This document shows positions 17,746 to 26,942 of a stretch of DNA of 42,012 bases, in pieces. The notes beneath the pieces are model-generated. The model saw only the letters and a list, made by a program, of their open reading frames with translations. It searched no databases and had not been told where the DNA came from. The stretch comes from Desulfobacteraceae bacterium. Lineage in GTDB: Bacteria > Desulfobacterota > Desulfobacteria > Desulfobacterales > Desulfosalsimonadaceae. The stretch lies in contig JAABSH010000032.1 of the NCBI GenBank assembly GCA_011390465.1, positions 1-42,012 of the forward strand, written 5' to 3'. Position numbers and translations under genes: made by a program. Each line of letters starts with the position of its first letter. The stretch's first letter is position 1.

Positions 17746-19161
17746 TTATTCCCGCTGATCCGCGGGCACATATTTTTTATTGAAATCCCCTGTATAAAGG
17801 GCCCGGGGCCGGAAAATCCGGTTTTTCTGAATATATTCAAACACCCGGGCTGTCCATCCGGCCACCCGGCTGGCGGCAAACAGCGGTGTGAACAATTCAT
17901 CCTCCAGGCCAAGGCAGCTGTAAACCAGGCCGGAATAAAAATCCACGTTCGGGAAAATATTCTTTTCCAGGGCCAAAGGCGATGCCAGCATGGTTTTTTC
18001 AAGCGACTTCGCCACTTCATAGCGCTTTTGATTTTTGGGATTGTCATGGATCAGAAACTGCGCCAGGGGTCCCAGCACTTTGGCCCGGGGATCATAGACT
18101 TTGTATACCCGGTGGCCGAACCCGCTGATTTTGGCTTTTTTGGAGAGTTTTTCCGCCACCCAGGATGCGACCTTTTCTTTTGATCCGATTTCCCGGATGT
18201 TTTTCATGGCTGCCTCATTGGCACCGCCGTGGAGGGGCCCGCTCAGGGCCGCGATGCCGGAGCCAACGGAAAAGTAAATATCGGAGAGAGTGGACGCCAC
18301 CACCAGAGAGGCGAAGGTGCTGGCGTTCATGCCGTGATCCGCGTGCAGAATGAGCGCGATGTCCATGATGCGCTCTTCCACCGGCGTGGGCGGTTTACCG
18401 GTGATCATGTAAAGCAGGTTGCCGGCGTGGCTCAGGGACGGGTCGGGTTCTAACGGCATCCGTCCCTGGTGAATGCGGGAAACCGCCCCGATAATGGTGC
18501 TGACCCCGGCGATCAGGTGGTAACAGGCCTCCATGGCGCTTTGTTTTTCAAAATACCGGTCGCTGCGCCTGGCGGTTTTTTTGCGGTCGCCCTGATTTTT
18601 GATTTTAAATTCATAAATAGCGCGTTTTCCCCCTGTGGGCTGGCATTCCATGGCAATGGAGTCTTCATCCGCGCAAATGGCATTGACTGTTTTGGGGCGG
18701 CCGGCGGCCTTGTCCATGTCCGTGAATTCCTGGCGCATGAGGTTGGTGCCCAGGCGAAGGGCTCCCATGACGCTCATCTCTTCCACCGGGAACCCCATGA
18801 GCATCCGCAGGGTGTCGTTGAGATGCATGTCGTCGAACAGCCGGCGTTTATATTCAGAGAGTTCCGCCGCATTGGGCAGTTTCCCGTGCAGCAGAAGATA
18901 GGCGACTTCTTCAAACGTGGCATTGGCGGCCAGATCAAAAATATCATATCCCCGGTACACCAGCCAGCCTTTGGCGCCATTTACGTATCCCACCTGGCTT
19001 TCGCAGGCAATGGCCCCTTCCAGGCCCGGGCCGACCTTGCAATCAATGGGCCATTGGGATGCGGCTGGTTTTTCCGGCACAGGTTCGCTTTGGGTTTCCA
19101 GGCGGGCTTTTTCCGCGGTTTCAAGGATGATATTTCGGATGGATGTCAAGGCATCGTGCAT
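17746..19161 (-). CDS. gltA: Citrate synthase
   Basis: A 471-residue type II-like citrate synthase, condensing oxaloacetate and acetyl-CoA. Catalytic residues are seen as H276 (ILHADHGMN), H311 (GPLHGGANE) and D407 (PNVDFYSG). H350 of GFGHRVYK fits the oxaloacetate site. Usual bacterial lengths are 370-435. The excess comes from a long N-terminal extension (about 1-38) and an extra charged segment at about 160-212. The ATG at 19161 has GGAGG upstream. A TTGACA at 19233-19238 (minus strand) may be its -35, but no good -10 pairs with it. Downstream, a dnaJ remnant shows the operon was once longer. Confidence 0.93.
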   Translation of the reverse strand: MHDALTSIRNIILETAEKARLETQSEPVPEKPAASQWPIDCKVGPGLEGAIACESQVGYVNGAKGWLVYRGYDIFDLAANATFEEVAYLLLHGKLPNAAELSEYKRRLFDDMHLNDTLRMLMGFPVEEMSVMGALRLGTNLMRQEFTDMDKAAGRPKTVNAICADEDSIAMECQPTGGKRAIYEFKIKNQGDRKKTARRSDRYFEKQSAMEACYHLIAGVSTIIGAVSRIHQGRMPLEPDPSLSHAGNLLYMITGKPPTPVEERIMDIALILHADHGMNASTFASLVVASTLSDIYFSVGSGIAALSGPLHGGANEAAMKNIREIGSKEKVASWVAEKLSKKAKISGFGHRVYKVYDPRAKVLGPLAQFLIHDNPKNQKRYEVAKSLEKTMLASPLALEKNIFPNVDFYSGLVYSCLGLEDELFTPLFAASRVAGWTARVFEYIQKNRIFRPRALYTGDFNKKYVPADQRE

Positions 19162-19495
19162 ATTTGTGCCTCCTGTTTTAACGGGTTAACCATGCAGGAA
19201 TATAATACATAAATTAAAAACGAATTTTACAATGTCAAGGGAGCGGCAGAGCCTTTAAATACCGCTGTTTTTGGCGATTCTCTTGTTAAAATGGCAGATA
19301 AAGCGTATTTTGTTGTTTTGTGCGTGTCTCAGACCCGTAAATCAGCCGGTTACGCGGATTGAAATCATAGATCCTTTGTTTTCATTTCTTTTGCCGGGTT
19401 TCGGGCCATAAACCCCACAGATAAAAAGGGGGTAAAAGCTGTTTTACTTATTGAAATTTCAAATAAATATTTTTTATTCAGCCGTCATAAAATGC

Positions 19496-19526
19496 TTGAC
19501 ATGGTGACGACTTGAGATCATATATC
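19496..19526 (+). promoter_or_regulatory. Sigma-70-type promoter of the kamA operon
   Basis: A perfect TTGACA at 19496-19501 is followed, 17-19 bases on, by CATATATC (19519-19526), which offers an acceptable -10. Transcription would start near 19532, about 70 bases before the kamA ATG. The rest of the 438-base gap after citrate synthase holds AT-rich DNA and no gene. Confidence 0.55.
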
Positions 19527-19599
19527 AGGAAAACCGGAACGATAGTGAATGTTAAAATAACTATTTGATTTTATTTTAAAAAAAATGAGGAAAAACATC

Positions 19600-20916
19600 A
19601 TGCAGGAATTGACGTCCAATCAGGAAGAATCCGCGTTAATAGAACTGGAGAAAGATGACGAACCTCCCAGCGAGCCCCCTTGCCCGGCGCCCCGGCTTGT
19701 CAAAGAAGGTCTCCCCCGCTATTCCCGATCCATTGTTTTTAAAAAACCCCGCAATATCAATAAAGACGCCATCCAGCGCACCCGCGCATTCCGGAAACGC
19801 TTTTTCCCGGAAGTGGCGGACAAGGACTGGAACAACTGGCACTGGCAGGTGCGCCATCGTATCTGCTCGCAATCCCAGTTAAAACGCTTTCTTCGCCTTT
19901 CCGCTGAAGAAGAAAACGCGTTTACCTGCCTGGATACCAAAATTCCCCTGGGCATTACCCCTTACTACATGAGTCTCCTGCCCGAAGACATACCGGAACA
20001 TCCCCTGCGCCGGACCGTGGTACCCACCCTGCATGAATTTTTTAAAATGCCGGGAGAAGAAAATGATCCCCTGGGTGAAGACACCCACAGCCCGGTACAC
20101 GGCCTGGTGCACCGGTATCCGGATCGGGTGCTTCTCTTGTTGACCGATTTTTGCGCGGCCTTCTGCCGGTACTGCACCCGGTCCCGGATGATCGGGCGGG
20201 GTACCATTAATGCCGGCGGGGCCCGGCTGGAAAAAGCGTTTGAGTATATCCGGAATACCCCGGCGATCCGGGATGTGCTGCTGTCCGGGGGGGATCCCCT
20301 GACCCTGAGCGACGCCCGGCTGGACTGGATACTGGCAAATCTGCGCAGCATTCCCCATGTGGAAATCGTGCGTATCGGTTCCAAGGTGCCGGCGGTGCTG
20401 CCCCAGCGGGTGACGCCGCAGCTGGTGAAAATGCTGCGCAAATACCATCCCCTCTGGATGAGCCTGCATTTTACCCATCCGGACGAATGCACGCCGGAAA
20501 CTTATAAGGCCTGCCGGATGCTGGCCGACGGCGGCATTCCTTTGGGCTCTCAGACGGTGCTGCTCAAGGGGATCAATGACAACAAGGAAACCATGACGGC
20601 CCTGGTCCACCAGCTCATGAAAATGCGCGTCAAGCCCTATTACCTGTATCAGTGCGACCCGGTGACCGGCACCGGGCATTTCCGGACACCTGTGGAAAAG
20701 GGGATTGAGATTATCCGGAGCTTGCGGGGGCATACCTCCGGGTATGCGGTGCCCCATTATGTGATCGACGCGCCTGGCGGCGGGGGAAAAATTCCGCTGA
20801 TGCCGGATTATGTGGTCGGTAAAACCGCGGACGAGATTCTGCTGACAAATTATGAAGACAAGATTTTTTCTTATCCCCTTTCGGAGAAACATAATGAAAA
20901 TCGGCCTGACCTATGA
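19600..20916 (+). CDS. kamA: KamA-family radical SAM enzyme, probable lysine 2,3-aminomutase
   Basis: A 438-residue radical SAM, PLP-dependent aminomutase. The [4Fe-4S] cluster site is C185-AAF-C189-RY-C192, followed by LLSGGDPL. The PLP lysine is K397 in APGGGGKIPL. D353 (YQCD) and D390 (VIDAPGG) correspond to the two Asp that hold the substrate amine in clostridial lysine 2,3-aminomutase, so lysine is the expected substrate and beta-lysine the product. I start at the ATG at 19600, since GAGG lies 9 bases before it, rather than at 19585. It begins an operon with two ATP-grasp ligases whose genes overlap it and each other. The first 45 residues are an acidic, Pro-rich extension. Confidence 0.88.
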   Translation: MQELTSNQEESALIELEKDDEPPSEPPCPAPRLVKEGLPRYSRSIVFKKPRNINKDAIQRTRAFRKRFFPEVADKDWNNWHWQVRHRICSQSQLKRFLRLSAEEENAFTCLDTKIPLGITPYYMSLLPEDIPEHPLRRTVVPTLHEFFKMPGEENDPLGEDTHSPVHGLVHRYPDRVLLLLTDFCAAFCRYCTRSRMIGRGTINAGGARLEKAFEYIRNTPAIRDVLLSGGDPLTLSDARLDWILANLRSIPHVEIVRIGSKVPAVLPQRVTPQLVKMLRKYHPLWMSLHFTHPDECTPETYKACRMLADGGIPLGSQTVLLKGINDNKETMTALVHQLMKMRVKPYYLYQCDPVTGTGHFRTPVEKGIEIIRSLRGHTSGYAVPHYVIDAPGGGGKIPLMPDYVVGKTADEILLTNYEDKIFSYPLSEKHNENRPDL

Positions 20917-21904
20917 CCTGCGCAGCGAATATCTGGCCATGGGCTACAGCGAGGATGAAACCGCGGAATTTGACCGGGATGACACCATCAGCGCCATTGA
21001 GAATGCGCTGAAGACCCTGGGGCATAAGACAGATCGCATTGGAAATGCCAAAGCCTTGACCCGGCGGCTGGTTGCGGGGGACCGGTGGGATCTGGTGTTT
21101 AATATCGCCGAAGGACTTTTCGGCATTGCCCGGGAAGCCCAGGTGCCGGCCATCCTGGATTTGTATGAAATTCCCTATACGTTTTCCGATCCCCTGATCC
21201 TGGGGCTCACCCTGCACAAGGGAATGACCAAACAGGTGATCCGGGAAAGCGGATTTACGACACCGGATTTCACAGTGGTGCCAACAGCTAAGGATGCCGC
21301 GGCCCTGAAATTTCCTCCCCCGTATTTTGTCAAACCCGTGGCCGAAGGCACGGGCAAGGGGATCAGCGAAAAGTCCATTGTCCGGGACCCGCGGCGTCTT
21401 GCGGCCGTTTGTGGTGAACTCCTGAAACAATACCGTCAGCCCGTGCTGGTGGAAACCTATCTTTCCGGCCGGGAATTCACGGTAGGCATCGTGGGCACGG
21501 GTCCGGACGCGGAAGTGCTGGGCGCTCTTGAGGTAATCCTGCTTCCGGGTGCGGAAAAAGGGGTGTATTCCTATGTAAACAAGGAAAAATGCGAGGAACT
21601 GGTGGAATACCGGCTGGCTTTGCCGAACAGTGATTTGCCTGTCAAAAAGGCCGAGGCCCTGGCCCTGGGATGCTGGCGGGCCCTGGGATGCCGGGACGGC
21701 GGCCGCATCGACATCCGCTGCGATGAAGCGGGAAACCCGTATTTTCTCGAAGTCAACCCGCTGGCCGGGCTGCATCCGGAACACTCGGATCTGCCCATTC
21801 TCTGTAATCATCTGGGTATCCCCTATGGAGAGCTCATCCGGCGCATTGTGGATTCCGCTGTCCTGCGCATGATGCCGGAAAATCGGGGGCAATGGGTCCA
21901 ATGA
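20894..21904 (+). CDS. ATP-grasp ligase, D-Ala-D-Ala ligase-like
   Basis: A 336-residue Ddl-type ATP-grasp protein. Visible are DLVFNIAEG (66-74), the ATP-binding YFVKPVAEGTGKGIS (144-158), VETYLSGREFTVG (186-198) and the metal ligands D273, E286 and N288 in RIDIRCD / FLEVNPL. The enzyme should join an acyl phosphate to an amine, forming a dipeptide-like bond. The ATG at 20894 has GGAG 7 bases upstream and lies 23 bases inside kamA, so translation is coupled. Its place next to kamA rather than among cell-wall genes argues against peptidoglycan synthesis. A beta-lysine or derivative is a likely substrate (inference). Confidence 0.88.
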   Translation: MKIGLTYDLRSEYLAMGYSEDETAEFDRDDTISAIENALKTLGHKTDRIGNAKALTRRLVAGDRWDLVFNIAEGLFGIAREAQVPAILDLYEIPYTFSDPLILGLTLHKGMTKQVIRESGFTTPDFTVVPTAKDAAALKFPPPYFVKPVAEGTGKGISEKSIVRDPRRLAAVCGELLKQYRQPVLVETYLSGREFTVGIVGTGPDAEVLGALEVILLPGAEKGVYSYVNKEKCEELVEYRLALPNSDLPVKKAEALALGCWRALGCRDGGRIDIRCDEAGNPYFLEVNPLAGLHPEHSDLPILCNHLGIPYGELIRRIVDSAVLRMMPENRGQWVQ

Positions 21905-23475
21905 AAATTGCCATTGCCCATAATGCGGTGGATGCGGCCAGTGCGCCGGATGAGCAGGATGTGCTGGTGCAGGCTGATGCCGTGGCCGAGGCCCTGATCG
22001 AACTGGGGCATGCACCGTTTCTGCTGCCCTGTGATCTGGATCTGGCCGGTGTCACGCAGGCAATTGAAAAACTGGGCGTGGATCTGGTGTTCAACCTGGT
22101 AGAATCCCTGGGGGGCACGGGCCGGCTCATCAGCGTGGTGCCGTTTCTGCTGGAGGCCCTTGCCATTCCCTTTACCGGCGCGCCGGCCCTCGCCATGCAG
22201 GAGTCGTCCCATAAAGTGCTGGCCAAGGCAAAAATGCGCCATGCCGGGCTTTCCACCCCGGCCTGGATCGGCCCCTTTCCCCGTGAAGGCTGTTCGGTCG
22301 AGGCGCTGAAATCAATGCCGGAGAGCAGCCAATGGATCATCAAATCCACCTGGGAGCATGCTTCTTTGGGGATCAGCGCGGACGGGATACGAACCGCGGC
22401 GGATGGGGAAGCCCTTTTGCCGGTGCTGCGGCAGCGGGCCGACGGCCTGGGGGGAAGCTGTTTTGCGGAGCAGTTTATTGACGGCCGGGAGTTTAATCTG
22501 TCCATCCTTGCCGGACCCAACGGGCCGGAGGTGCTGCCGCCTGCGGAAATTCTGTTTGACGGCTTTTGTGAAAACCAGCCGCGCATTGTCTGTTACAAGG
22601 CCAAATGGGACGAATCCTCATTTGAATATACCCACACCCCCCGGCGGTTTGATTTTCCTGATGCGGATAAATTCCTGACAGATACCCTTGTCAGCATCGC
22701 CCTTAAATGCTGGCAGGTGTTTGACCTTCGGGGGTATGCCCGGGTGGATTTCCGGGTGGATGGTGAGGGCCGGCCCTGGATTCTGGAGGTGAATGCCAAC
22801 CCCTGCCTGTCGCCGGATGCAGGGTTTGCCGCGGCTCTTGACCGGGCGGATATTCCTTTCCATTGCGCGGTTGGCCGCATCATAAATGATGCCACAGAAG
22901 ACGCCACGGGAAAATATGACAGACCTGTTGAACCTGCGGCCGTGTCTCCAAAAGCGGAAAAGCCCGCAAAAAACGTGAACCTTTTGAATTCATTGCCAGA
23001 TGCGGTTTTCCGGCATGAAGCGCGGCCCGGGGATGGGGAAGCGGTCCGGGAAATGTGCGCGGCAACGGGTTTTTTTCATTCATACGAGATTGATGTGGCC
23101 GTAGAGCTGCTGGCGGACCGGCTTGAAAAAGGGGCCGCAAGCGACTATGAATTTGTGTTTCGCGAAAAAGCGGGCCGCTTGTTGGGATATGCCTGCTACG
23201 GCCGGATTCCCTGTACCCTTTCCAGTTATGATATTTACTGGATTGTGGTGGCGCCGGACCGCCAGGGCCATGGCCTCGGCCGGATGATGTTGGCTGAGGC
23301 GGAATCCCTGATTCAAAAAGCCGGCGGCACCCGGATTTATGTGGACACCTCCCAGTCGGAAAAATACCGGACCACCCGGGCGTTTTATCAGCAGTGCGGA
23401 TACCATTGCGAATCCATTCTGCCGGATTTTTACGCGCCGGCAGACGGAAAGGTGATCTTCTGCAAGAAATTATAA
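21901..23475 (+). CDS. ATP-grasp ligase fused to GNAT N-acetyltransferase
   Basis: A 524-residue two-domain protein. Residues 1-330 are a second Ddl-like ATP-grasp: DLVFNLVESLGG (61-72), WIIKSTWEHASLGIS (145-159), FAEQFIDGREFNLS, and metal ligands D283, E296 and N298 in RVDF / ILEVNANP. A Pro/Ala/Lys linker (about 335-360) leads to a GNAT domain (366-524) with the acetyl-CoA motif APDRQGHGLGRMML (451-464). KamA plus an acetyltransferase recalls ablA-ablB, which make N-epsilon-acetyl-beta-lysine in methanogens, but the ligases are extra. I start at the ATG at 21901, giving MKIAIAHN and an ATGA overlap; one at 21892 is possible. Confidence 0.85.
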   Translation: MKIAIAHNAVDAASAPDEQDVLVQADAVAEALIELGHAPFLLPCDLDLAGVTQAIEKLGVDLVFNLVESLGGTGRLISVVPFLLEALAIPFTGAPALAMQESSHKVLAKAKMRHAGLSTPAWIGPFPREGCSVEALKSMPESSQWIIKSTWEHASLGISADGIRTAADGEALLPVLRQRADGLGGSCFAEQFIDGREFNLSILAGPNGPEVLPPAEILFDGFCENQPRIVCYKAKWDESSFEYTHTPRRFDFPDADKFLTDTLVSIALKCWQVFDLRGYARVDFRVDGEGRPWILEVNANPCLSPDAGFAAALDRADIPFHCAVGRIINDATEDATGKYDRPVEPAAVSPKAEKPAKNVNLLNSLPDAVFRHEARPGDGEAVREMCAATGFFHSYEIDVAVELLADRLEKGAASDYEFVFREKAGRLLGYACYGRIPCTLSSYDIYWIVVAPDRQGHGLGRMMLAEAESLIQKAGGTRIYVDTSQSEKYRTTRAFYQQCGYHCESILPDFYAPADGKVIFCKKL

Positions 23476-23513
23476 AATTTAATGGTTGTCCACTTTGCTC
23501 AATTTCAGCCATT

Positions 23514-23567
23514 GAAATCGGTATCGGGATCGAAATCGCTATCGAATCCGATCCCGATACCGATTTC
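23514..23567. repeat. Perfect 19-bp inverted repeat of ATCGGGATCG type
   Basis: GAAATCGGTATCGGGATCG (23514-23532) and its exact reverse complement (23549-23567) enclose a 16-base loop. A further GATCCCGAT unit extends the right side to 23576, followed by AAAAAA rather than T's. It begins 39 bases after the ATP-grasp/GNAT stop. Confidence 0.85.
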
Positions 23568-23622
23568 GATCCCGATAAAAAAGCACGGCAGTTTGAGGGA
23601 AACAGATAACCAGATAAAATTT

Positions 23623-23661
23623 CATCCCGCAGAGACGCAGAGATGCTGAGATGCTGAGATT
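23623..23661. repeat. CGCAGAGACGCAGAGATGCTGAG repeat, short copy
   Basis: CATCCCGCAGAGACGCAGAG followed by ATGCTGAGATGCTGAGAT, a tandem of 9-base ATGCTGAG units. It is related to the CGCAGAG elements at 10963 and 14057 but lacks their right half. Confidence 0.6.
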
Positions 23662-23687
23662 TTTTTCTGTGAGGCAGGAATTTTTTT

Positions 23688-23811
23688 AACCACAGAGAGC
23701 ACAGAGAACACAGAGAAAATATGGTTTTCTGGTTTTCACGAGACAAGTGGAAAATCTCTGCGGAAGCATCAAAACGATCGCCGTGTCCTCTGTGAGCTCT
23801 GTGGTTTTTAA
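23688..23811. repeat. CACAGAG inverted repeat, copy c (wide spacing)
   Basis: AACCACAGAGAGCACAGAGA and ACACAGAG on the left face GTGTCCTCTGTGAGCTCTGTGGTT on the right, about 60 bases apart. The outermost CCACAGAG(A)GC and GCTCTGTGG pair almost exactly. The 23812-23940 remainder of the gap shows no gene. Confidence 0.75.
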
Positions 23812-23951
23812 GGTTTTAAGTTAAAAAAAATTTGGTTTTTTGTGAGCTTTTGATTTTTGAATGGTTGAAATAATCCTTGGCTGGAGAACAGTGGTCAGTC
23901 GTTTCATCAGCAAATATGCCCTGGTGGCAGCGAGCTATCCGGAGGAGGTAG

Positions 23952-25085
23952 ATGAAAATGGATTTTGGAAAAATTTCAGACGATCTTCTGGCGGTTGCTT
24001 TTGATTCCACCAACGCCTTCACGGGTGCGCCGGAGGAACTCTGGTCTTGCTGGTTTGCGGTGTCGGAATCGGTTTTTTGGGAGTTCAACCCGAAATCCCG
24101 GCTGCCGGACCGGAATGCGGCAAAGCGCCGGATGTCCGTGGCCAGCCCCCTTTACCGGACCGAGCGATTCCTGGTGTTTAATCACGCAAAAACACCGGTG
24201 GCGGTGATGTCCTTTGGCTATGAAACCGAACGCTCCCCCAGTTATGAATTGGACAAAAACATCTGTCATATTAATATTCTGGTGGAAAAAGGGTTCCGTC
24301 GGCAGCGGATTGCTACCCGGCTGCTGGCGGAACTGCTGAAAAAAGCCCGCAGCATGCAAAAAATCACCATTGCCGGAGAAATCGACAACACGCCGGCCAG
24401 AAAATTTTGCGAAGCTTACAATGGGGAAATGGTGCACAAGGAAGTACAGCACCGAATGTACATGGACGGGGCTGACTGGGAGGCAGCCGCGGAGTGGCGG
24501 ACAAAGGGGAGAAAAAAATTTCCGGACACCACTTTTGAGTTTTTTCAGGATTGCCCGGATGCGGACATTGAAGCGTTTTGCCGGACCTACACGGAAATTA
24601 TCAATGAGCGCCCCACCGGCGACATGCAGCAGACCCTCATTACCACGCCCCAGTCCCGGCGGATCGAAGAAGAGAATCTGAAAAAGAAGGGAGTGCAGTG
24701 GTATACCCTGATCTCCCGGGAAAAGAACGGCGATATCAGTGCCATGACCGATATCATGTATCACCCCCGGGAGCCGCACAAAATTGTCCAGTATTTTACC
24801 GGCGTGTCTGCCGGACACCGGCGAAAGGGGCTTGCCAAACGGCTGAAAGCGGAAATGCTCTATGTGATGCAGGAAAAGTTTCCGGAAGTGGAATACATCA
24901 CCACCACCATGGCGCCGGACAACCGCCCGATGCAGGCCATCAACGCGAAGCTGGGATTTAAGCTGCGGAAGACCGATTGTGTGTATCAGTGGGCGCTTAC
25001 GGATCTGGAGACTCAGGTGGCAGCGCGCCTTCAGACCGCAGGGAGAAGACGGAAAAGGAATTGTCAAACGGGTTTCCCCGGGTGA
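23952..25085 (+). CDS. Tandem-GNAT acetyltransferase
   Basis: A 377-residue protein with two GNAT folds. The first has LVEKGFRRQRIATRLL (about 110-126), the second has VSAGHRRKGLAKRLKAE (about 280-296) followed by TTMAPDNRPMQAINAKLGF. Each holds an R/QxxGxG/A-like acetyl-CoA loop; the first, RRQRIA, lacks the usual Gly and may be inactive. The domain ends near residue 350; the last 27 or so residues, basic and of low quality, overlap the opposite gene's 3' end. A GGAGGAGG ribosome site fits the ATG at 23952 or the one at 23958. The substrate is unknown. It follows the kamA operon by 476 bases of repeat DNA and may be independent. Confidence 0.8.
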   Translation: MKMDFGKISDDLLAVAFDSTNAFTGAPEELWSCWFAVSESVFWEFNPKSRLPDRNAAKRRMSVASPLYRTERFLVFNHAKTPVAVMSFGYETERSPSYELDKNICHINILVEKGFRRQRIATRLLAELLKKARSMQKITIAGEIDNTPARKFCEAYNGEMVHKEVQHRMYMDGADWEAAAEWRTKGRKKFPDTTFEFFQDCPDADIEAFCRTYTEIINERPTGDMQQTLITTPQSRRIEEENLKKKGVQWYTLISREKNGDISAMTDIMYHPREPHKIVQYFTGVSAGHRRKGLAKRLKAEMLYVMQEKFPEVEYITTTMAPDNRPMQAINAKLGFKLRKTDCVYQWALTDLETQVAARLQTAGRRRKRNCQTGFPG

Positions 25086-26082
25086 TGTGAAAATCAAGGG
25101 CGTGAAAATCCATGATCAGGGTCGCTACCGTAATGGAGGTGTCATCCGTAAGCCAGGGATGGGAAAACCGCTTGCGGCAGATGGGTGCGGTCTCATCGCC
25201 CCGGTCCTTTAAAATCTTTTTCATGGCCCTGATGGAAGGGGTGGAAACCGCGTCCATCAGTTCCGACGCCCGTCGGAAGCGGCCCGTGGAATTGGGAAAA
25301 AGCTTGAGATCATAATCGACTTTGGTGAGGAAATGGTTGGTGTGGACAAACCGGTCTTTCACCGGAAGGCTGAAAAATTCATTGCCCGCAATTTCAATGT
25401 TTTCCATTTGTCCGTTTTTGTCCGCAATCAGCAGATTGCAGACTTTGCCCAAACAATGGGAGGTGATGACCGACCGGGCAGCAGCAAGATCTTTGCTTTC
25501 AAGAATTGCCCGCAAGAGCACATGCAGGGGAATGCCGCCGGGTGAATAATTTGCAATGCTCATAAAGTTGAGGCAAACCCCGACGCCGTGGCTGTTCATG
25601 CCGATTTTACCGATCATCCCGGGTTCGGTCATGGTCAATATCCGGGTGCTGGTGTGGGTTTCAATGTCCGGTATTTCAATATCCGGTATTTCAATGTCAA
25701 GGATCACCGCCAGCGATTCTATTTCCATGTCCCAGTCCCAGTTCTGGCCCATGAGTCCCTGCTTTTTAAAGGCGATGGTTGTGCATTCCATGGGATTGAG
25801 GTTCAGAAGCTCGGTGCGTCCGTTCAGGGCGTAAATCCACAAGGGGTCCACATCGGCTGCGTCTGCCAGTGCTTCAATTTCCAGGAACAGATTCGTGCAA
25901 AACGCCCGGGTGTTGGCTTGAAATCCCCGGGAAATACCTAAGATATCTTTTTCCGGGATCAGAAACTGGTTTTTATAGAATTCAACGGTTCGGTGGATTC
26001 GGTCTTTGAGCTGCCGGCCGTGCTGGCGGCCGCGTTCTTCAGGGGTGCCGCGGAGTTTGATGACGGGGAAATACGGTTCCAT
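24997..26082 (-). CDS. C45-family Ntn hydrolase (isopenicillin N acyltransferase-like)
   Basis: A 361-residue member of the acyl-CoA:6-aminopenicillanate acyltransferase-like (C45) family. It has the nucleophile C100 in NPMECTTIAF, then GQNWDW (112-117), GMIGKIGMNSHGVGVCLN and HCLGKVCNLLIAD in the family order. These Ntn enzymes self-cleave before the Cys and hydrolyse or transfer acyl groups from small amides. Three tandem IEIPD units (about 130-141) form an unusual insertion. The start lies 11 bases after the stop of the MBL gene with no clear ribosome site, suggesting translational coupling. Its 3' end overlaps the convergent GNAT gene by 89 bases. Confidence 0.8.
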   Translation of the reverse strand: MEPYFPVIKLRGTPEERGRQHGRQLKDRIHRTVEFYKNQFLIPEKDILGISRGFQANTRAFCTNLFLEIEALADAADVDPLWIYALNGRTELLNLNPMECTTIAFKKQGLMGQNWDWDMEIESLAVILDIEIPDIEIPDIETHTSTRILTMTEPGMIGKIGMNSHGVGVCLNFMSIANYSPGGIPLHVLLRAILESKDLAAARSVITSHCLGKVCNLLIADKNGQMENIEIAGNEFFSLPVKDRFVHTNHFLTKVDYDLKLFPNSTGRFRRASELMDAVSTPSIRAMKKILKDRGDETAPICRKRFSHPWLTDDTSITVATLIMDFHALDFHITRGNPFDNSFSVFSLRSEGALPPESPDP

Positions 26083-26093
26083 TGAGAAGTGCG

Positions 26094-26942
26094 TTAAAAA
26101 TTATAAAAATGCCACTGACGGGCCAGCCCCTGAAATCCATAGGCTTTGACGGTTTTTTCAAAATCTTTCCAGTCGTCTCCGTAATGCATCAGGATCATTT
26201 TTTCTTTGATGTCCGCGGGCAGGGTGTTCAGCTCCTCAATGCCGGCATGAACCCCGCCGGTATAAAACTGGCAGTCGTGAAAAATGCATTCCAGGTCGAA
26301 AAGCGGGCAAAAGGTCTCAAATAATTGCGGATCAAACCGGGTGTCACTGGTGAACATGACCCGGTCGTCAACGATCACGCCGCAGCTCCAGAAAGCGCTT
26401 TCCCAGTCCGGCGAGATGTCCGGGGTGTGTTTGGTGCGGAATAATTTCAGGTTGATGCTGCCGACATCGGCTTCATGGGTCTGGCGGGGATACTCCGGCC
26501 GGAACCGGGGCCGGATGATATGCCACAGATCGCTGAAAGTGGTTTCCGGCCCGTTTCTTTCATCATTAAACCCGGCCCCGCCTCTCAGGGAAAGATCCCA
26601 CAGAATGTGCTGGTATTTATTGTCAATAACAATGGTGGGTTTCTGTTTGCTGATAAACCGGCCGGTGAGCATGACTTCTTCAAGTCCGCCGATATGATCG
26701 GCATGGGAATGGGTGATGAGAAAGGTTTTGATGTCCGTGACGCTCAGGCCGAGTTCGTAAAGGGCCTGCGGTGCTTTGGTGCCGCAGTCAATCATGATGT
26801 GATCATTGCCCTTGATGATAATAACGTTGTTCTGAAAATGCTTTCGGGTAAACGCGCTGCCCACTCCGACAAAAAAGAAGGATAAATCACCGGTATTGGT
26901 AAGCGGCAGGGTGGCACCGGGTTTCAGCTTTTTAATTTTCAT
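26094..26942 (-). CDS. Metallo-beta-lactamase-fold hydrolase
   Basis: A 282-residue MBL-fold protein with the metal motif THSHADHIGG (H78, H80, D82, H83), TSDTRFD and a C-terminal LMHYGDDW supplying the last His. HDCQFYTGGVHAGIEEL is a variant of the HxxH-type region seen in phosphodiesterase or RNase Z-like members. Probably a hydrolase of a phosphodiester or small amide or ester. The ATG at 26942 has AGGGA about 9 bases upstream. It is first in an operon with the C45 acyltransferase. Confidence 0.85.
   Translation of the reverse strand: MKIKKLKPGATLPLTNTGDLSFFFVGVGSAFTRKHFQNNVIIIKGNDHIMIDCGTKAPQALYELGLSVTDIKTFLITHSHADHIGGLEEVMLTGRFISKQKPTIVIDNKYQHILWDLSLRGGAGFNDERNGPETTFSDLWHIIRPRFRPEYPRQTHEADVGSINLKLFRTKHTPDISPDWESAFWSCGVIVDDRVMFTSDTRFDPQLFETFCPLFDLECIFHDCQFYTGGVHAGIEELNTLPADIKEKMILMHYGDDWKDFEKTVKAYGFQGLARQWHFYNF

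Follow-up and report, generated by a model that had tools for sequence, protein, structure and literature searches.

In this computational study, we analysed a 42,012-nt stretch of DNA from a Desulfobacteraceae bacterium (assembly GCA_011390465.1, contig JAABSH010000032.1), referred to as the window, whose positions serve as coordinates throughout, and in it a cassette at 19600-23475 encoding a KamA-type aminomutase, an ATP-grasp ligase (ligase 1) and a second ATP-grasp ligase fused to a GNAT acetyltransferase (ligase 2-GNAT, one reading frame at 21901-23475 on the + strand). We give an even chance to the reading that this cassette constitutes a dedicated intracellular diamine-conjugation pathway, which would make an N6-acetylated beta-lysine amide. 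The three genes overlap as described in the initial annotation of the window, by 23 bases between KamA and ligase 1 and by 4 bases between ligase 1 and ligase 2, and its domain assignments were recovered by Pfam as Radical_SAM with LAM_C, Dala_Dala_lig_C, and Dala_Dala_lig_C with Acetyltransf_1, respectively, with NCBIfam agreeing on the classes. The KamA start at 19600 is plausible, since GAGG is located immediately upstream. The single good promoter also proposed there could not be upheld, since we observed 3 promoter-like sites in 19000-24100 compared to 3.2 +/- 1.9 in shuffled sequence, so that no promoter of the cassette stands out above chance. The site at 19178-19206 ends about 390 bases before KamA, beside the start of the divergent citrate synthase gene, and a perfect TTGACA at 19496 is found without a good second hexamer. 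Features of the locus are collected in Table 1.

Table 1. Genes and domains of the cassette and its surroundings in the window.
Feature	Position	Strand	Remarks
KamA-type radical SAM aminomutase, predicted lysine 2,3-aminomutase	19600..20916	+	alternative start 19585
ATP-grasp ligase 1, Ddl fold	20894..21904	+	Dala_Dala_lig_C
ATP-grasp ligase 2, Ddl fold, N-terminal part of fused protein	21901..22920	+	Dala_Dala_lig_C
GNAT acetyltransferase domain, C-terminal part of ligase 2 fusion	22990..23475	+	Acetyltransf_1; closest solved relative 2r7h
Double-GNAT protein, possible accessory	23952..25085	+	two GNAT domains
C45-family autoproteolytic acyltransferase/hydrolase, possible accessory	24997..26082	-	NF040521 212.9 bits, cut-off 85
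Citrate synthase, divergent, beside KamA	17746-19161	-	

The distribution of the gene set extends well beyond what a single window could show. We searched 40 related genomes, 148 genomes drawn from the phylum, and named public one-per-species genomes, the last of which yielded at least 577 relatives of ligase 1 by tblastn, not all of which need be orthologues. Counts out of 80 refer to the best 80 of these at least 577 ligase 1 loci, which were thus chosen by ligase 1; adjacent pieces of one family are counted once, while pieces with broken frames (e.g. L044, L047, L059, L095, L096) are left split. Among the 40 relatives, cassette KamA and ligase 2 occur together in 17 and are both absent from 23 (Fisher p = 1e-11, ignoring relatedness), at match levels of at least 61% identity for KamA and at least 45% for ligase 2, with G003 carrying fragments for both. 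Of the 17 carriers, 12 have ligase 2 and GNAT as one fusion, while both are separate in the other 5. Across the phylum, with cuts at 590 bits or more for KamA (23 genomes) and 430 bits or more for ligase 1 (26 genomes), both genes were found in 21 genomes, KamA only in 2, ligase 1 only in 5 and neither in 120. Ligase 1 lies directly behind KamA in the 21 genomes and additionally in G183, with profile matches 16 to 387 bases apart; G183 holds KamA only at this cut, its ligase 1 being present in two frames. The genomes with ligase 1 only were inspected for G179, G151 and G063, leaving out G055 and G099, and in the first two the ligase adjoins a KamA of 453 and 449 bits, respectively.

The 80 loci contain KamA in 74 cases, ligase 2 in 71, GNAT in 62, an amidohydrolase in 34, a CxxCxxCC-type protein in 25 and the pair of C45 hydrolase and double-GNAT protein in 1. 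If only loci with enough flank are taken into account, KamA is present in 69/71, ligase 2 in 65/71, GNAT in 46/55 and the amidohydrolase in 23/54. As far as sequence can tell, the gene order is thus conserved in many genomes, in support of the initial annotation. For five loci in which KamA and ligase 1 stood alone, the remainder of the genome was examined, and ligase 2 was located elsewhere in four of these (L082, L097, L098, L112), accompanied by GNAT in three, one of them fused to MazG. The CxxCxxCC-type protein (e.g. L064:6439-7023) is encoded between KamA and ligase 1 in 22 of its 25 loci, before ligase 1 at the contig start in two and downstream in L087; it scores over the cut-off of Pfam PF03692 for L118 and slightly under it for L064. 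Draft-genome labels, taken as given, assign the best 80 loci to Desulfobacterota, Planctomycetota and other phyla, and among the carriers is Desulfatitalea alkaliphila M08but (L072).

For KamA, lysine 2,3-aminomutase 2a5h was the sole solved relative (480 bits). In an alignment of 30 cassette KamAs against it, comprising the window protein and 29 chosen from 69 full-length named KamAs, 12 of 17 checked positions are unchanged in all 30 rows. C125, C129, C132, R134, D293, D330 and K337 (2a5h numbering) are kept throughout and position 328 in 29 of 30, while positions 173, 187, 202 and 289 differ or vary, with R202 replaced by K in every row. The residues that we take to be the radical SAM cluster cysteines, the pyridoxal phosphate lysine and the lysine-binding Asp pair of a lysine 2,3-aminomutase are consequently all present. 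The Asp pair had been pointed out before as D353 and D390 of the window protein, which indeed align with D293 and D330; however, 7 of the 10 further paralogues included in the alignment have it as well, so that by itself it is no marker of the cassette. LAM_C is matched over profile positions 1-63 of 127 only, and the AblA model TIGR03820 gives 488 bits, below its equivalog cut-off of 525.4. Scores of 441.1 bits on the glutamate aminomutase model (cut-off 650) and 240.9 bits on the EpmB model TIGR03821 (cut-off 369.3) are in line with the annotated preference for lysine rather than glutamate or elongation factor P (EF-P). Judging from its residues and scores, KamA looks like a free-lysine enzyme forming its own subfamily.

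In other bacteria, KamA-type enzymes supply beta-lysine to EF-P, and some ATP-grasp ligases tag proteins. The cassette ligases might accordingly couple beta-lysine to proteins or the cell wall, as EF-P modification or as a peptide tag, instead of producing a free solute. We consider this improbable, since the EF-P ligase EpmA is found over its cut-off in 17/17 relatives with and 19/23 relatives without the cassette, which makes the EF-P system independent of the cassette and the cassette unlike that system. A second KamA of lower identity is moreover present in many genomes of both kinds (in the window genome G000:C80, 50% identity), the best structural matches listed for the ligases are Ddl-type enzymes acting on small substrates, and the gene families present in at least 4 of the 80 loci include no evident candidate for a protein substrate.

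Both ligases keep the fold and the ATP/Mg residues of D-alanine-D-alanine ligase (Ddl). In a structure comparison the 50 matches listed for ligases 1 and 2 were Ddl-type chains only, a list that leaves room for other ligase families. However, both remain under the 243-bit cut-off of the Ddl model NF002378 with 146.1 and 85.6 bits, while the true Ddl of the window genome, encoded by another gene, reaches 347.8 bits. The GSS loop, AKY and acceptor loop, which presumably contact the substrates in Ddl, are not kept in the window ligases, where GTG/NKE is found in ligase 1 and HAS/AKW and SPDAGF in ligase 2. Taking the changed substrate residues, the low scores and the separate Ddl gene together, the ligases appear to be Ddl-like without serving as the Ddl of the cell, as had been suggested. 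Plasmid-borne ligases of about 30-36% identity, found in 18 records all belonging to Rhizobium, Sinorhizobium, Bradyrhizobium, Mesorhizobium or Shinella, were set aside; two of these records have their ligase annotated as Ddl, and neither KamA nor GNAT was listed in the two plasmid regions inspected, for which the gene table is incomplete. A viral collection gave 25 pattern matches, none of them a relative of ligase 1.

The cassette GNAT matches its closest solved relative with 132 bits over 153 residues. According to PMC1224877, methanogens form N-epsilon-acetyl-beta-lysine with a lysine 2,3-aminomutase-type enzyme and an acetyltransferase encoded in one operon (ablA-ablB), a known pairing which the cassette resembles and which could suggest the same osmolyte as product, with the ligases stemming from a loosely linked second pathway. 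This explanation is quite unlikely, because AblB (TIGR03827) was not detected in the window genome, in a search for which a Methanosarcina acetivorans control was positive, and none of the 40 relatives exceeded the cut-off, while ligase 1 is tied to KamA (69/71) at least as tightly as GNAT is (46/55), in loci picked by ligase 1. The cassette further differs from ablA-ablB in its two additional ATP-dependent ligases, in a KamA under the AblA cut-off and, in many relatives, in the amidohydrolase. In the asnO-ngg pathway to N-acetylglutaminylglutamine amide, as described in PMC8070244, one protein likewise combines acetylation with peptide-bond formation, yielding a small acetylated amide. The cassette genes, in contrast, include no asparagine-synthase-like gene and feature KamA instead, and the best Ngg match (TIGR03103, cut-off 569) in the window genome amounts to 28.9 bits at another locus, in a search without positive control, since no control genome passed the cut-off. 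With neither AblB nor Ngg over cut-off, neither known route to an acetylated solute explains the GNAT.

In other loci the GNAT is either a separate gene or fused to the amidohydrolase, and in L031, L032 and L033 it follows a histone-deacetylase superfamily enzyme in one protein; PF00850 scores 253-259 bits in three amidohydrolase proteins. Both activities share one reading frame in 27 of the 34 loci holding the amidohydrolase, and this fusion is absent from all 13 loci in which ligase 2 and GNAT occupy one frame. The nearest solved chains are the acetylpolyamine amidohydrolases 9gkz and 6phr (250 bits), and across 32 rows selected by score the GHH, DxH, Asp and Tyr motifs, which we assume to be catalytic, show a conservation of at least 90%. 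Different from these solved enzymes, the partner has an additional N-terminal GNAT-like domain, for which the match to the cassette GNAT has a probability of 87%, and in most cases also bears the latter itself. Among the 40 relatives, the amidohydrolase was observed in 7/17 cassette carriers (unlinked in 4) and in 0/23 of the others (p = 0.001).

In the window, the genes for the C45 hydrolase and the double-GNAT protein adjoin the cassette in tail-to-tail orientation. Among the relatives, 4/17 carriers, none of which has the amidohydrolase, and 0/23 others hold this pair (p = 0.026), a count that omits a distant C45 match of 35% identity in G025. Orthologues of the C45 hydrolase with at least 71% identity occur in the same four genomes as the double-GNAT protein, which is present in 4 of the 40 relatives, all carrying the cassette; the pair additionally adjoins the cassette in L074. 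The C-terminal half of the double-GNAT protein is weakly similar to EctA (37.4 bits versus 120.6). In L126, a homologue of the citrate synthase (L126:7933-9399, 65.6% identity) adjoins the pair, which may be just an old neighbourhood. Encoded next in the window, at 26094-26942 on the - strand, is a metallo-beta-lactamase-fold protein with 116 bits against a Pfam cut-off of 50 for the anti-Pycsar protein Apyc1, probably a ribonuclease Z-like hydrolase.

Among 14 additional loci sampled, three (L160, L161, L162) have a related ligase pair lined up with polyamine genes in the manner of an operon, while at least as many genomes of similar ligase 1-like score (e.g. G069, G104, G107, G143) lie outside this set. 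Each of the three loci encodes a pyruvoyl arginine decarboxylase scoring over cut-off and a deoxyhypusine-synthase-like protein, the latter over a cut-off in L161 and L162, and agmatinase passes its cut-off in L160 and L161. In L160 and L162 the ligase pair is followed by a GNAT of 119-133 bits, the next GNAT in the row reaching just 20-23 bits. The ligase tree places the first ligases of this sister operon on the side of ligase 1 and the second ligases on that of ligase 2. Putrescine is formed by way of arginine decarboxylase and agmatinase, and beta-lysine is in structure a putrescine bearing CH2COOH, with N3 and N6 four carbons apart. This likeness provides one common reason for the association of KamA with the ligase pair, for the amidohydrolase partner and for the sister operon, and the shared N-C4-N spacing leads us to read the cassette in terms of diamine conjugation. 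The amidohydrolase, the CxxCxxCC protein, the C45/double-GNAT pair and the sister operon, all missed by the initial annotation, shift its interpretation from a peptide to a diamine conjugate.

The frequent placing of GNAT and amidohydrolase in one reading frame, together with sister ligases in a polyamine operon, would also suit a route in which the acetyl group only blocks self-condensation of beta-lysine and is subsequently removed by the amidohydrolase, leaving a cationic beta-lysyl peptide or polyamine analogue. Such a use as protecting group seems unlikely to us, since the remover would be needed everywhere, while the amidohydrolase is absent from 10/17 cassette genomes, unless the C45 hydrolase or another enzyme serves in its place.

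We propose a model of diamine conjugation in which KamA would convert L-lysine to beta-lysine, as its sequence strongly suggests, and ligases 1 and 2 would form one or two amide bonds at the expense of ATP, joining beta-lysine to small carboxylic or amino acids. The latter step is suggested by the fold, the kept ATP/Mg residues and the co-conservation of the ligases. GNAT would then acetylate an amino group, most likely N6, and on chemical grounds the resulting N6-acetyl-beta-lysyl unit should resemble N-acetylputrescine to an enzyme. In many relatives, the amidohydrolase, usually located on the GNAT polypeptide, may remove the acetyl group again, either as a charge switch or for breakdown of the solute. 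In the window organism, deacetylation may be carried out by the C45 hydrolase/double-GNAT pair or be missing. The sequences provide good support for the enzyme classes, the gene order and the co-conservation. As to the product, it probably serves as a compatible or polyamine-like solute, which is the least certain part of the model, a polyamine-like or charge-switched solute being just as conceivable. More tentatively, and in our view less likely than not, the cassette and the sister operon could belong to a widespread family of diamine-conjugation pathways, in which one module of two ligases and an acetyltransferase accepts putrescine-type polyamines in some cases and beta-lysine, as a carboxylated putrescine, in others. 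The resulting amide solutes would form a class of their own, with a charge controlled by the fused acetyltransferase/deacetylase.

Several observations weigh against this model. The window genome contains no close amidohydrolase (best matches 34-38% identity), so that the deacetylation step is not directly applicable there. In the sister operon, agmatinase was not seen beside the ligase pair of L162, and the dividing branch of the ligase tree is weak (75/92), with the sister second ligases not forming one group. Some members lack a part of the cassette: L158 (G122) has KamA and ligase 2-GNAT without ligase 1, no KamA was found in the 13.7 kb of L156 (G063) nor in L084 and L106, which have upstream room for it, and the L118 record carries a GNAT fused to MazG and no ligase 2. 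In two genomes (L140:2800-4296 and L141:3319-4767) the GNAT match is fused to a MazG nucleotide pyrophosphohydrolase domain, indicating a GNAT family wider than the cassette. Finally, record names refer to groundwater and deep-mine as well as to marine and saline habitats, by which a plain salt-stress role is not indicated. The label 'Kuenenia' of L118 was given no weight, since its 8.2-megabase record is too large for what we take to be the size of this organism.

Neighbour families were delimited by blastp, counted from 4 loci upwards and named by eye, except for F8 and F9, which were named by Pfam. F6, F8, F9, F10, F11 and F13 each occur in 4/80 loci, while F4, F7 and F12 were dropped as reading frames opposite cassette genes. 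The ABC-transporter family F9 (Pfam for L055 and L110) is present in L055:9826-10746, L104, L110 and L115 without a fixed place, lying directly behind ligase 2-GNAT in L055. Since beta-lysine is found in several antibiotics, a transporter at this position might hint at an exported metallophore or antibiotic built from it. We regard such a product as very unlikely: a family present in just 4/80 loci and at no fixed place lends it little support, and no transporter family occurs in more than 4/80 loci, though no search was aimed specifically at nonribosomal peptide synthetase, receptor or resistance genes. An OsmC-like protein (F8; Pfam for L049:3590-4159) is encoded upstream of the cassette in L049, L056, L064 and L077.

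Further variants were observed outside the common arrangement. In L151:5086-12228 and L153:5693-12816, and in part in L152, a ligase 1-like gene, a histidine kinase and a sigma-54-type response regulator, the latter two named for L151 only, precede KamA and an ATP-grasp gene, hinting at regulated expression. Cassette-free relatives encode a protein of 659-660 residues with a Ddl-type ATP-grasp (L037:11797-13773, L038:8738-10717, L039:9061-11040), for which an N-terminal methyltransferase domain is shown in L037 and L039, and L037 features a further ATP-grasp protein of 719 residues nearby. In L147:3325-5420 and L148:2807-4998, an ATP-grasp gene overlaps the preceding gene by four bases, and its partner in L147 matches a putative zinc metallopeptidase family.

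None of the outcomes which the initial annotation had named as speaking against it, i.e. a lack of co-conservation, ligases making D-Ala-D-Ala or a KamA acting on glutamate or EF-P, is indicated by the genes and profiles analysed here. Its assignment of KamA as a lysine enzyme and of the ligases as different from Ddl is supported, while the peptide, osmolyte or metallophore it offered as product stays hypothetical. Among the literature entries listed, no paper describes the gene set, and none pairing KamA with ATP-grasp was returned. An earlier description may exist, as operons of this kind could be covered by Iyer and others in their 2009 survey of ATP-grasp amidoligases.

Given how common the pathway is, its product is probably an abundant metabolite, as yet without a name as far as our searches show. 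If the model holds true, the pathway would connect beta-amino-acid solutes with polyamine metabolism. The few enzymes involved and the named carrier strain, Desulfatitalea alkaliphila M08but, offer a direct way to look for the product.

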